DNA of 64,000 bases from a virus. The notes under the pieces were generated by a model. The model was not told where the DNA came from, did no database searches, and worked only from the letters and a program-made list of their open reading frames with translations. Shown piece after piece: positions 28,343 through 33,354 of the stretch. Position 1 is the stretch's first letter; the number at the start of each line of letters is the position of its first letter. Both the position numbers and the translations under genes were made by a program. Location: positions 62,001 through 126,000 of the IMG/VR virus record IMGVR_UViG_3300021959_006010; one strand, given 5' to 3'.

Positions 28343-28977
28343 GTAGAAAATACTTTTTTATTGTCAAAAGCACGTTCCCATCCAAAGAACTGTGCTTTAT
28401 AATCCGAATGATCGTCTGAACTTAGATTTTCCCATTCGTCCTTACGTTGGTATAAACGCATTGCACCGTCATACCAATCAGTGTCGTCTATAATTTTTTC
28501 TAGACGTTCTTTTGCAGCATAGGCAGATTCTACATTGTCAAAATCTTGTTCTATGTGTATCACTTCCATTACAATGTCGTGTGTAACAAAATCCAAACTA
28601 AAATCAATACCCCATTTGGGTTTAATGTTTAGCAATTTTTGAAGTATTGGGCGATTTTTGCATACTTCTTCTATTTGCTCTCTTGCTTCTCCGGCAAACG
28701 CATAACGAGTTAATAGCATACAGTGATCTAGTACAAGCCCGTGTTCGCTTTGTTCTACGTCCGTGTACCATTCTTGCACCGGAGCAATATGATATTGTAT
28801 TTCTCTGTTGAGTTTAACACCGTTTGCTTCGTAGTGCAAATGTTCTAAAGGAGTTGGAACCTCGTAACCGTCCTTGTCAAAATCTTTAAATGGAAGTGTT
28901 TCGACTTGTAGTCGTGCTATTGGTTTGCGAAGAAATGGATCTGGATCGAACTTAGGGTATAAGTTCTGAAGTATCAT
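28339..28977 (-). CDS. Phage protein of unknown function (212 aa)
   Basis: 212 residues, acidic, soluble. It begins MILQNLYPKFDPDPFLRKPI, and later segments such as WGIDFSLDFVTHDIVMEVIHIEQDF suggest a beta-rich core. It overlaps the 418-residue gene by 4 bases (ATGA). I do not recognise it. Confidence 0.72.
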   Translation of the reverse strand: MILQNLYPKFDPDPFLRKPIARLQVETLPFKDFDKDGYEVPTPLEHLHYEANGVKLNREIQYHIAPVQEWYTDVEQSEHGLVLDHCMLLTRYAFAGEAREQIEEVCKNRPILQKLLNIKPKWGIDFSLDFVTHDIVMEVIHIEQDFDNVESAYAAKERLEKIIDDTDWYDGAMRLYQRKDEWENLSSDDHSDYKAQFFGWERAFDNKKVFST

Positions 28978-30230
28978 CCGATCTCTTTTGCTCCCATACG
29001 ATCTAATGCCATATCAATTTGAACAGCTAATTTAAAATCATCCGTTGTAAGGCCTTTTGTATCGTGTGTGTATACAACAAGCTCTACTTCGTTATAAAAG
29101 AACTTGATATCTGCAAAATGATCTAATTCAATCTGTGGTTTTTCGATAACCATTAAGAAACGTAGTACAGTGTTGTAATCGTCAAACGCTACTTTCTTAT
29201 ATAGATATTTTCCTTTACGTATTTCCCAATCTTTAGCATATTCTTTACGTAACGCTTCGGCGTCCATGCCATCAACTTTGGTATATGACTCGCCCATTAT
29301 TTTACCTTTGTGTTTTTCTTTTCGTGGTAAAACTTTTTTCTTATCTTTGTGTGCGCCCATTGCACCACTTTTGCGTAAATCTTGCATAGTTTGTGCATTT
29401 GGATCACGTGGTTTAATTTTTGGCTTATCTTTGTATGCTTCTAGTGCTTTTAATAAACTATCTTTAATAGTTCCGGTTCCCTTGGCAGCATCTTTTAGTG
29501 TAAATGGTTTTCCATTTACATCTGTTATTTGTTGTCTGCTGATAGCAAAATTTGCTCCTTTTAGAGTGAGCTTTATCTGCGGTCTTCCTTTACCATCTTT
29601 TTGATTTACTAACAAACCTATTACAGGTGCAGTTCTTTTCTGTCCTGTTGAATTAGTATAGGTAACGTTATCTCCTTTTTTAAGAACATAACCGTTGTCA
29701 CTAACAGGCCAATCTTCTTTTGGTTGAGCGTCTGGAGTTACTTTATCTGCTTGAGGTTTTTCCTTAGGTTCTTTTTTAGGAGTTTTTTCTTTTTTATCAA
29801 AGCTCATAGGAGCCAATGCATCAATTTTATTATATTTGTCAAAGCCTTGTCTAAACGCATCACCTGCTGTTGGATTTTCTTCAAGATCGTTGTCTATACT
29901 ATCTCCAACAAGTTTATCTTTTAGAGGATGTTCTGTACGCCCAGGTTCCGCAGTTGGCCAAGGATCTGATCCTTTTGCTTGACCACTAGAACCTGTTTTT
30001 TGTCGTTCGTCTAATCTTACACCAGCAAGTGCTGCAAAATCTGTTATGGAATAATCTTTATCCAAGCCTAAACTACCTTCGGTCACTTCTGCACTTTCTT
30101 GTAGATAATTTGTTGTAGGTGCTACATTATCTATAGGCTGTCCAGCTTGCGCTTTTAATTTTGCAAGGTCTTCTCTAGGATCACTTGGATCCAATGCAAA
30201 TAGTTTTTGTTGTAGTGCGTGATAATCCAT
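28974..30230 (-). CDS. Large protein with C-terminal pterin-4a-carbinolamine-dehydratase-like domain
   Basis: 418 residues. The first 300 residues are polar, Lys/Pro-rich and probably disordered, with a beta segment near 185-250. The last ~100 residues (KKVAFDDYNTVLRFLMV, then YNEVELVVYTHDTKGLTTDDF) match the DCoH/PCD fold, including the THD.KGLT..D motif. The usual HHP catalytic pair is reduced to a single DHF, so it may not be enzymatic. DCoH domains can also act in protein binding. It lies in a block of probable virion-associated proteins. Confidence 0.65.
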   Translation of the reverse strand: MDYHALQQKLFALDPSDPREDLAKLKAQAGQPIDNVAPTTNYLQESAEVTEGSLGLDKDYSITDFAALAGVRLDERQKTGSSGQAKGSDPWPTAEPGRTEHPLKDKLVGDSIDNDLEENPTAGDAFRQGFDKYNKIDALAPMSFDKKEKTPKKEPKEKPQADKVTPDAQPKEDWPVSDNGYVLKKGDNVTYTNSTGQKRTAPVIGLLVNQKDGKGRPQIKLTLKGANFAISRQQITDVNGKPFTLKDAAKGTGTIKDSLLKALEAYKDKPKIKPRDPNAQTMQDLRKSGAMGAHKDKKKVLPRKEKHKGKIMGESYTKVDGMDAEALRKEYAKDWEIRKGKYLYKKVAFDDYNTVLRFLMVIEKPQIELDHFADIKFFYNEVELVVYTHDTKGLTTDDFKLAVQIDMALDRMGAKEIG

Positions 30231-30322
30231 TATTCTTTAGCCATTTTAGTTGCTGTTGCGTACATTACTGCTTCTGCATCTTTGCCATAGCGTTTTTTAA
30301 AATCGCCTTTGGCTTTCTTCAT
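30230..30322 (-). CDS. Continuation frame of the upstream gene (30 codons from ATG)
   Basis: The frame reads MKKAKGDFKKRYGKDAEAVM and ends ATATKMAKE, a C-terminal type I recall on many marine-phage proteins. It is either a coupled micro-gene, the ATG overlapping the upstream TGA (ATGA), or the natural C-terminus of the 180-residue protein reached by a -1 shift at the A9G tract 20-30 bases before. See findings. Confidence 0.6.
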   Translation of the reverse strand: MKKAKGDFKKRYGKDAEAVMYATATKMAKE

Positions 30323-30861
30323 ACCTTTAACGTATTTCTCTTTTTTTTTGATTCGTCCTTAGTAAGTGTACGTTCTGCAAGTTTTGCAGCTAAAGAGCTT
30401 TTGTAATCGCTGTCTCTTAACTTCTTCTTACTTCTTTTACCTGATGCTTTTGCTGCGTGTATAGCTTTGCGTTGTGCAGCAGACTTGAACTTACCTTCGT
30501 TAACAGCATTGCAGTTACAGTGCTTACAAGTCGGCGGACATGTACAATCTTCTGCTTTAACATCAGATCCACAGCATTTGTCTGAACAATGTGTATCCTT
30601 TGCTTCTCCTAGTTCGCCTGTTGCTTGTTCGTAATCTAAACTATGATAGACACTTCCCATGTAATCTGCTGCTTTGGTAATTTTAGCTTGTTGCCAGCCT
30701 TCAATACCTTCTTCTTCAGAAACACCTTTTAGCATATCGTGTAGTTTGATAGCATACTTTGCAATCTTATATAGATCAGCACGAGCCATTTGCACTTCGT
30801 GGTCACGTTCTGCACGATCTGCAAGGTCACCTAAACCCTCTTTGATCTCATTTTCTTTCAT
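30319..30861 (-). CDS. Cys-rich phage protein with IKE-G N-terminus (180 aa)
   Basis: 180 residues. It starts MKENEIKEGLGDLADRA, matching a prohead-protease-like I-x-E-G site. The middle (about 109-137) holds nine cysteines in CSDKCC, CTCPPTCKHCNC patterns, likely a metal-binding knuckle. The C-terminus is Lys-rich. It ends in ESKKKRNTLKV unless a shift at the nine-A tract extends it by 36 residues. A late-type promoter lies 30 bases upstream. Confidence 0.72.
   Translation of the reverse strand: MKENEIKEGLGDLADRAERDHEVQMARADLYKIAKYAIKLHDMLKGVSEEEGIEGWQQAKITKAADYMGSVYHSLDYEQATGELGEAKDTHCSDKCCGSDVKAEDCTCPPTCKHCNCNAVNEGKFKSAAQRKAIHAAKASGKRSKKKLRDSDYKSSLAAKLAERTLTKDESKKKRNTLKV
30341..30350 (-). 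promoter_or_regulatory. Candidate -1 frameshift site (nine-A run followed by G)
   Basis: In the coding sense C-A9-G sits in frame as TCA AAA AAA AAG, which gives a dnaX-type A-AAA-AAG heptamer. A -1 slip joins the frame to one ending in ATATKMAKE. Equally, a homopolymer sequencing error could create the break. Confidence 0.45.
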
Positions 30862-30882
30862 TGAAAAACTCCGTAATTCGCA

Positions 30883-31815
30883 TTATAGTGTATTTATCTT
30901 TTCCTTTGTACAAGTAATATCAAAATTACAATGACACCAATCCTTGTTACACAATATAGGCTCGTTTGGTAACTCTAATTTATCATCAAATATATTTCCG
31001 ATATTACCACCAACGCCGCACCAGCCTCTACTAATTTTACCGTCAAGGAATACAATAAGTTGTTCTATGCCAATATGACAATTCCATCCATTCCAGTTAT
31101 TCATTTTAGAATTAACTAGCTCGTTGGCTCCGTAATCAACATCTTTGTACGTCATTTTTCCTCTCAAATAAGGAAAACGTTTTGTTTTTATGACTTTATC
31201 TTTGATATTTTTTTGTTGATCTTTTATTAATTGATGCTGTTCGTCAGTATATGGATATAAGTCTCCACTTAAATCATATAACAACGGTTGCAACGATATT
31301 GTTAAATTACCTAAGTCTTTTATAGTATCTGCAACATCATAACAATAATCAAAATTCTTAGGATCCATCATAATATTTACATGGGTTCGAAGATCATTGT
31401 GCAGTATTTTAACTACATCTATAAAATGATCTTTGTTTGCATACTCATGATGGAAACTTAAATTAATTGAACTAAAATATTTTTTGTTAGCTTCCCACCA
31501 CCTTAATGATCTACTACCATTACTAATCAGTCCTACTTTAATATTGTTATCTGAACAAAGTTTACACAACTGATCAAAGTGTTTATAAAGCGTAATTTCT
31601 CCACCAGTAAATTCAAAGTAGAGCTTTTTATTAGGAAAAGATGTTTTTATTTTATTAACAAACCTTTCTACATAAGAAATGTCAGGCCACTTAGTTGATC
31701 CATCGTGTAAGATGTCAGGACAATAACTGCAATTAAAATTACAAGTGTTGCCTAAGCACCAATTTACGATAAACCAGTCTTTATGAGAAGGATCTGAATG
31801 TGTTAATGTTTGCAT
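30883..31815 (-). CDS. Radical SAM protein (310 aa)
   Basis: 310 residues from ATG 31815. CNFNCSYC (residues 24-31) is the CxxxCxxC cluster site, and FEFTGGEITLY (68-78) is the GGE motif. The C-terminal part has several cysteines (WNCHIG, GWCGVGG, CNKDWCHCNFDITC), a SPASM-like auxiliary cluster region. These enzymes often modify peptides or cofactors. It lies near another, split radical SAM gene at 32.2-33.2 kb. Confidence 0.86.
   Translation of the reverse strand: MQTLTHSDPSHKDWFIVNWCLGNTCNFNCSYCPDILHDGSTKWPDISYVERFVNKIKTSFPNKKLYFEFTGGEITLYKHFDQLCKLCSDNNIKVGLISNGSRSLRWWEANKKYFSSINLSFHHEYANKDHFIDVVKILHNDLRTHVNIMMDPKNFDYCYDVADTIKDLGNLTISLQPLLYDLSGDLYPYTDEQHQLIKDQQKNIKDKVIKTKRFPYLRGKMTYKDVDYGANELVNSKMNNWNGWNCHIGIEQLIVFLDGKISRGWCGVGGNIGNIFDDKLELPNEPILCNKDWCHCNFDITCTKEKINTL
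30891..30898 (-). promoter_or_regulatory. T4-late-like promoter element GATAAATA
   Basis: GATAAATA on the minus strand, 30 bases before the ATG of the Cys-rich gene. It lies within the end of the radical SAM gene. Confidence 0.55.
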
Positions 31816-32216: not shown

Positions 32217-32544
32217 CTGTTAATTTCCTTTGTTTATGGTGCGTACCAGACTTAACTCTACAAGTATTATTACATTCTCTAAAAGGTACATCAGACCAGG
32301 AGTTTTCGTATTCTTTAAAAATGCCTTTTTCTACTATTGTATTAACAGAAAACTTTGTTACATCATTAAAGTCGTTGTCAAACTTCTTTTCTTTAAAAAA
32401 TCTTTCTGTAAAACTACTATCTGTATTTAGTATTTGAGTTTCTTGATAGTCAAACGCTGACCAGCAACAATAAAACAATTTTTTATCTGCAGAAAGATAT
32501 ACACTATTTTCTTTTTTAGCAAAGCAATCTATTTTATCCGTCAT
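32206..32544 (-). CDS. SPASM-type C-terminal half of a split radical SAM protein
   Basis: 112 residues. It begins MTDKIDCFAKKENSVYL and contains LFYCCW and RECNNTCRV, the cysteine pattern expected in a radical SAM auxiliary (SPASM) domain. It starts 11 bases before the preceding 217-codon radical SAM frame ends, in the +1 frame. Together the two give about 330 residues, the usual length of a radical SAM/SPASM protein. It may be translated alone or joined by a frameshift. Confidence 0.6.
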   Translation of the reverse strand: MTDKIDCFAKKENSVYLSADKKLFYCCWSAFDYQETQILNTDSSFTERFFKEKKFDNDFNDVTKFSVNTIVEKGIFKEYENSWSDVPFRECNNTCRVKSGTHHKQRKLTDEN

Positions 32545-33187
32545 AATCTATAACCTTTGTAGCAGGATATATTGTATATAGTTTTTTATAATCTTTATCT
32601 AAAACATCTAAATGATCTTTCCAAAATCTGTTTGAAGATCTTGCTTTAAATTTTTTAAATCCTAATTCTTTTGCTAACATTTTACAGTCATCTACTTGGT
32701 GTTCATTATGGCGGAAAACATTCATAGTCCATATAGCAGTTCCGCCTTCGTTAATAAAACATTTAGCATTATTAATTATAACATCGAATCTAGTATTTCG
32801 TCTATATAAATGATGAGTGTCTTCTAGACCATCTATACCAAATTCAATTAAAACGTTATTAATTCCTAACCATTTCCAAAAATTAATATGTTGTGCTCCA
32901 CCGTTAGTATTAATGTGTACTTCTATATTTCTTTTTAAAAATTCGTTAATAAATTCTTTAGGATGAGTATGCTTAACTATGTCTCCATAATTTCCATTAA
33001 TTAAAACTTTTTTTAAGTTTTTGAAATACGGATCGTCAAGCGTCTTAGCTATGTCCTTTGCTGACCATTCAGTTATAGACAAACCTTCTTTTAAATTAGG
33101 ACTTGCTCCGCTGTGTCTCATACATTGGGGGCACCGAGCATTGCAATCAGTAGTCGGCTCAATGTGCAAACTTGTTGGTAAGGTCAT
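32534..33187 (-). CDS. Radical SAM protein, N-terminal part (split gene)
   Basis: 217 residues from ATG 33187, which overlaps the upstream stop as ATGA. CNARCPQC (14-21) is the CxxxCxxC site, and the TIM-barrel strand LINGNYGDI follows. The frame ends at KVIDYDG without a C-terminal auxiliary domain; that domain lies in the next frame (32206-32544). No homopolymer lies at the junction, so a programmed or true mutational frameshift or a split gene are open options. Confidence 0.78.
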   Translation of the reverse strand: MTLPTSLHIEPTTDCNARCPQCMRHSGASPNLKEGLSITEWSAKDIAKTLDDPYFKNLKKVLINGNYGDIVKHTHPKEFINEFLKRNIEVHINTNGGAQHINFWKWLGINNVLIEFGIDGLEDTHHLYRRNTRFDVIINNAKCFINEGGTAIWTMNVFRHNEHQVDDCKMLAKELGFKKFKARSSNRFWKDHLDVLDKDYKKLYTIYPATKVIDYDG

Positions 33188-33354
33188 TTTAAGTATTTTT
33201 GGTATGTTTTCCAATAATTCTGACGTTCATTTGTGCTTGCTCGTCGAGCTTCGTGTTCTTTTATTTTAGCAACATAATGACTTGTTTCTATGCCACTATT
33301 GTTCGGATATAGTTCTACTACTTTTTCTTCCGTCCCGACTTCATGTTTGCGCAC
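33184..33354 (-). CDS. Small charged protein, GTG start (56 aa)
   Basis: An open frame of about 56 codons lies between the end of the 245-residue gene and the radical SAM gene. It has no ATG; the best start is GTG 33354, overlapping the upstream gene by 37 bases. It reads RKHEVGTEEKVVELY and ends YWKTYQKYLK. Its stop forms ATGA with the next start, which supports translation. Unknown function. Confidence 0.5.
   Translation of the reverse strand: MRKHEVGTEEKVVELYPNNSGIETSHYVAKIKEHEARRASTNERQNYWKTYQKYLK

Follow-up and report, generated by a model that had tools for sequence, protein, structure and literature searches.

The window analysed here is a stretch of 64,000 nt, corresponding to bases 62001-126000 of a 275,366-base IMG/VR virus record. 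Among its products are a phrog_262 DNA polymerase and a baseplate wedge-type protein, its GC content is about 37%, and we read its source as a large T4-like phage known solely through sequenced environmental DNA. The minus strand carries an open reading frame (ORF) of 180 aa at 30861..30319, ending in TKDESKKKRNTLKV before its stop codon, with a helical N-terminal domain, a Cys-rich middle (CSDKCCGSDVKAEDCTCPPTCKHCNCN) and a basic C-terminal part. The helical domain is conserved and forms, together with the Cys-rich stretch, the body of the protein. An AlphaFold2 model of a relative, L048, in which the gene is read in one frame, contained nothing but helices (mean pLDDT 69, pTM 0.37). A DNA-level search against cultured phages returned no match, and a protein-level search of a cultured-phage collection gave the window gene partial matches only, none of them full-length. 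Just upstream of this Cys-rich protein lie a radical SAM gene (PF04055; 30883-31821, minus strand) and another ORF in which a similar Cys motif occurs (32534-33214, minus strand), and a maturation link is possible. The downstream gene (28974-30230, minus strand, 418 aa) has a C-terminal pterin-4a-carbinolamine dehydratase domain (Pfam PF01329, E 3e-15), preceded by a long N-terminal part with no confident family match.

Close to the end of the 180-aa ORF is a run of nine A's (30349..30341, minus strand), with TC (30351-30350) on its 5' side and G (30340) on its 3' side, which we consider a candidate slip site. The zero frame reads TCA AAA AAA AAG across it and thus contains the heptamer A_AAA_AAG (30346..30340, minus strand), a slippery site of the X_XXY_YYZ type. 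In the -1 frame, a tail of 36 codons, EKYVKGMKKAKGDFKKRYGKDAEAVMYATATKMAKE (30233..30340, minus strand), opens with GAG AAA TAC GTT and runs to a TAA at 30232..30230, which overlaps the ATG of the downstream gene (30230..30228) as TAATG. Since the zero-frame stop falls 88 bases short of that gene, the -1 reading suits the gene layout better. The tail matched the profile phrog_12788 (E 5.5e-8; annotated as of unknown function), and the module is also found as phrog_727. An earlier, sequence-only reading of this DNA had reported a 180-residue Cys-rich gene ending soon after an in-frame A-AAA-AAG, a coherent 36-residue end that a -1 shift would add, and a zero frame that adds only RNTLKV; all of this was borne out, the ORF ending in SKKKRNTLKV. 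It had placed C-A9-G at 30341-30350, which is right for the run and one base off at the G (30340). It had also held that eight or ten A's would mean a simple fused gene. This is true of ten; eight A's leave the frames apart, as fusion takes one extra A or the loss of two (A7), and the loss of one A does not fuse them.

Other elements lie around the run, all on the minus strand. An ATGA at 30322..30319, in which the zero-frame TGA overlaps a -1-frame ATG, is a possible restart site. A Shine-Dalgarno-like AAGGA (30356..30360) stands 9 nt 5' of the heptamer; it was sought upstream of the run in four relatives (L014, L015, L031 and L087) and was absent, and a Shine-Dalgarno stimulator was therefore dropped as a general feature. 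A hairpin, GCCA..TGGC (30284..30313), begins 27 nt past the run, beyond the usual distance of a stimulator, and the same hairpin at +27 also occurs in some in-frame relatives. An Rfam scan of 29500-31500 found nothing. An explanation by a promoter or terminator was dropped, with a terminator-like site absent and promoter-like sites at chance level.

We then asked how often such a configuration is met by chance. Among the 139 runs of A5-A8 in long ORFs of the window, four were followed by an ORF end within 7 codons and by a -1 frame of at least 30 codons, and these were mostly ordinary gene overlaps. As the configuration alone arises by chance at about 3%, the evidential weight rests on conservation among homologues. 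The full 275-kb record contains two A9 runs, against about five expected, and no run of A10 or longer; with the count near expectation, the scarcity of A9 was rejected as an argument.

A homologue search with the window gene yielded 80 IMG/VR loci. The same C-terminal module is joined in frame in 17 of them (e.g. L004, L006, L028 and L048). Four other distinct sequences (L014, L015/016, L031-034 and L087), which come from separate metagenomes in several different IMG datasets, are shifted like the window, and all have nine A's. Their zero-frame tails differ from the window's RNTLKV, reading KSTLKV, KR or KST. The comparison of homologues that had been proposed with the sequence-only reading thus found the A9 and the -1 tail kept in relatives and the zero-frame tails variable. 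A pattern scan of the homologues that catches any run of at least eight A's before the window tail module detected no A10 allele, and the nearest in-frame relatives (L012 and L088) read TCT-A9-GAG, being in frame without an extra A. Between the window and L031, the tail shows 11 differences, distributed 1, 0 and 10 over the three -1-frame codon positions, with nine synonymous codon changes and one nonsynonymous. From the A run to the candidate restart ATG, all five differences fall on third positions, and to one of these L031 owes its zero-frame stop. This predominance of third-position differences points to a translated -1 frame and argues against a restart at the ATG, although part of the synonymous pattern may go back to in-frame ancestors. 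Shifted sequences are scattered over the N-terminal tree of the window gene, and the in-frame L012 and the shifted L031 share an identical 125-residue N-terminus, which indicates that the frame state changes easily. In several relatives of the window gene (L002, L004, L008, L011, L048, L153, L154 and L158) the A9 run is in frame and a -1 stop follows within 1-2 codons, so slippage there would make a short form from a long gene. This is suggestive of the same two products with their roles exchanged; these relatives are interrelated, and they give no count of independent cases.

The second A9 run of the record is, like the first, TC-A9-G on the same strand. It lies outside the window, at G000:C1:202266-202276 (L094; L255), and closes an ORF of 241 aa with TCA AAA AAA AAG TAA, past which the -1 frame goes on for about 100 codons. 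The ORF matched the profile of phrog_14154, a virion structural protein (E 4e-13); this was its sole profile match, and we do not claim the gene as a prohead scaffold. A tail spike-like protein, an exonuclease and a ribonucleotide reductase are encoded nearby, and a search with this gene against cultured phages gave no match. With the joined-frame sequence as query, 80 loci were retrieved, of which only L248 was cut by a contig end. The run stands at the ORF end and is followed by a -1 continuation in 79 of the 79 uncut loci, as well as in the phage's own genome, and no in-frame fused allele was present among the uncut loci. In most of them the continuation can be recognised as one and the same domain, a few being too diverged for the BLAST step. 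Distinct contexts carrying the tail motif number 58, of which 53 have A9, three A8 and two A10, and in the A8 and A10 members neighbouring substitutions (TCT-A8-G, A10-TAA) preserve the same out-of-frame phase. As an undercall would have to be of exactly one base at every run length, a miscount is not credible. The second-gene tail stands as a gene by itself, apparently with an ATG start of its own and opening MKLFE or MKLNE, in L278, L282 and probably L273, and is thus a real domain. L279 has a different coding sequence before the run and yet retains A9-GTAA; this replacement suggests module exchange at the run. The sequence before A9 in L279 ends GTKHKGLPKKK, close to the end of L013.

Further uses of the site were found among the fetched loci. 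In L097-L103 and L106, an ORF of 194-195 codons ends TTC-A9-GACTAG and is followed by a -1 continuation of 52 codons that carries the tail module of the window gene, and in L104 a different ORF of 229 codons leads by a like arrangement into a window-type tail module. Distinct A9 contexts among the fetched loci comprised 62 with a -1 continuation and one with a +1 continuation. The idea that every A9 run in these phages is a recoding site was rejected, as other large records hold plain in-frame A9. A small basic tail module ends several unrelated proteins of these phages, and the A9 site is common to several gene families of one phage group and apparently lineage-wide. Tentatively, we consider a wider reading, in which a portable cassette (approximately TC-A9-G, often then a stop) would supply several unrelated proteins, probably including virion proteins, with interchangeable C-terminal modules on a share of their molecules, with the cassette fixed, the flanking modules swapped, and either frame able to be the long one.

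Taken together, the sequence arrangement and its conservation make it probable, in our judgement with good confidence, that slippage at A9 gives the window gene two products, with the 36-residue tail on a share of the molecules. Standard decoding would stop after SKKKRNTLKV and yield the short product of 180 aa. At A9, a share of decoding events would gain the equivalent of one A (net -1) and continue into EKYVKGMKKAKGDF...KMAKE, giving a product of about 210 aa that ends at the TAATG of the next gene. We infer both the occurrence of slippage and the usefulness of the two products from these patterns. The -1 extension proposed by the sequence-only reading is thereby supported, with a tail conserved under coding-type constraint and the same A9/-1 arrangement in a second gene family. 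The device looks selected rather than a sequencing error, being conserved in the second gene across dozens of phages.

Several other explanations were weighed against slippage at a maintained site. The one with the most in its favour, which we nevertheless regard as unlikely, is that an in-frame A10 recently and genuinely lost one base and that the loss was tolerated, with slippage or restart rescuing some product and the site not selected as a signal. It would fit the scattered shifted state and the pair L012/L031, which differ in frame over identical N-termini, and selection maintains frameshifts in homopolymers according to Wernegreen (2010), as cited in PMC6260861. However, five distinct shifted sequences on several branches show coding-type change in the tail, and the second family holds the shifted state throughout. 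Slippage is the mechanism under this alternative too, the one point of difference being how the window allele arose. A translational restart at the ATGA (30322..30319), which the sequence-only reading had raised, would yield a peptide of its own, MKKAKGDF...KMAKE, about 30 residues long, and is distinctly improbable. An ATG does lie 18 nt past the run in 5/5 shifted sequences, overlapping the zero-frame TGA in the window, but the same Met occurs in in-frame relatives, so that the protein motif accounts for it; the zero-frame stops of L031 and L015 come before the ATG and do not overlap it, and the window and L031 differ five times from the run to the ATG, each time synonymously in the -1 frame. 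Moreover, only 6 of the 59 second-family tails have an ATG in the first 25 codons after the site and the other 53 lack one there, so restart is no general answer.

Two further alternatives place the change in the DNA or in the data. Phase variation, in which the A run would expand and contract in the phage population and switch the tail on and off, draws on poly-A as a known phase-variation substrate (PMC3711429) and on close relatives that include both in-frame and shifted alleles. We hold it to be very improbable, as the second family has no in-frame fused allele in any locus uncut by a contig end and the close in-frame L012 differs by TCT-A9, not by A10. Least probable of all is that sequencing or assembly lost one A of a true A10 and that the gene is a simple fusion. 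An A10 would indeed fuse the frames, the record has no A10 or longer, and both of its A9 runs need one more A. Against this, out-of-frame A9 recurs in several IMG datasets with no A10 allele found in the pattern scan, the second family keeps the out-of-frame phase at run lengths of 8, 9 and 10, and in-frame A9 runs of other contigs read straight through as coding. The conserved out-of-frame phase in both gene families makes a sequencing error in the A run, which had been offered as an alternative to the frameshift, very unlikely.

With slippage at A9 as the preferred explanation, we considered whether the polymerase or the ribosome would be responsible. We lean slightly towards insertion of an extra A by RNA polymerase as the somewhat likelier mechanism, and both may contribute. 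The homopolymer at the junction has at least eight A's, being A9 in the window gene and A8-A10 in all 58 second-gene contexts; it does not fall below eight, whereas six A's would suffice for the heptamer, the run-length scan having taken runs of at least eight, which all second-gene relatives possess. The last base of the heptamer varies among relatives (AAG, AAC, AAA), which also speaks for the polymerase. Eight A's are the minimum for E. coli RNA polymerase, which did not restore the frame by deletion at poly(A) (PMC6260861), in agreement with the -1-only direction here. Ribosomal -1 slippage on A_AAA_AAG has nearly an even prospect of being the mechanism. It is favoured by the presence of the heptamer in the correct phase in most sequences and by stable structure next to the site in part of the second family, where 23 of 56 sequences fold more stably directly past the site than codon-shuffled versions. 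Against this, the codon-shuffle test was also positive about 45 nt past the A run, in 26/56 sequences (second family, L175-L254). In the window gene no downstream stimulator was found at the usual spacing, the hairpin at +27 being the only one, and a dnaX-like hairpin was rejected as a general feature, since neither the window gene nor L097-L106 has one at the usual distance.

The E. coli dnaX site has a Shine-Dalgarno-like element and a stem-loop, neither of which has a conserved counterpart in the window gene. Frameshifting in dnaX resembles the window site in the identical heptamer, in runs of about nine A's and in two C-terminal variants made in a ratio, as proposed here; unlike in the window gene, the -1 product of E. 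coli dnaX is the truncated one. E. coli dnaX uses ribosomal frameshifting on A_AAA_AAG, and the Thermus type is transcriptional at poly-A (PMC5009743, PMC3711429). Transcriptional slippage at poly(A) is also known for tssM1 of Citrobacter rodentium (A11) and tssM3 of Yersinia pseudotuberculosis, where, as proposed here, it gives short and long products of one gene (PMC4256274). In one of this pair the short form is in the zero frame and the long form in the shifted frame, and in the other this is reversed, as among the relatives of the window gene; in contrast, tssM is a bacterial secretion gene, with a longer run and with mRNA heterogeneity and a rate of about 20% measured, where our case is built on sequence (PMC4256274). 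Coat-protein extension by -1 frameshifting is known in phage T3 and Lactobacillus phage A2 (PMC5009743). These extensions, and likewise tail assembly chaperones, place a C-terminal module on a share of the protein through a -1 shift; They differ in that other proteins and other tail modules are concerned, whereas here a single A9 signal serves two unrelated genes within one genome. The methyltransferase of Campylobacter phage CPt10 has a poly-A frameshift for which rescue by transcriptional slippage was suggested, and so offers another frame change at a poly-adenosine tract, in a gene of a virulent phage; it is, however, a single case in an enzyme gene, with no conservation shown in that paper (PMC2853527). 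A poly-A frame change yielding two C-terminal forms is thus already known, and the less expected element is a site shared by several gene families. Our literature search of open-licence papers found no description of this A9 site in these phages.

In summary, our results predict two-isoform proteins, probably including a virion component, in an arrangement that recurs in dozens of uncultured phage contigs. By analogy with the phage coat-protein extensions, the longer form may decorate or anchor a share of the molecules. With standard gene callers, such genes would be truncated at A9 and their tails lost or misplaced, a matter of about 100 residues in the second gene. The site also offers a conserved and simple test case for distinguishing RNA polymerase from ribosomal slippage at poly-A in phages. 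If the tentative reading as a portable cassette is true, these phages would possess a lineage-wide recoding system, more than a curiosity of one gene.
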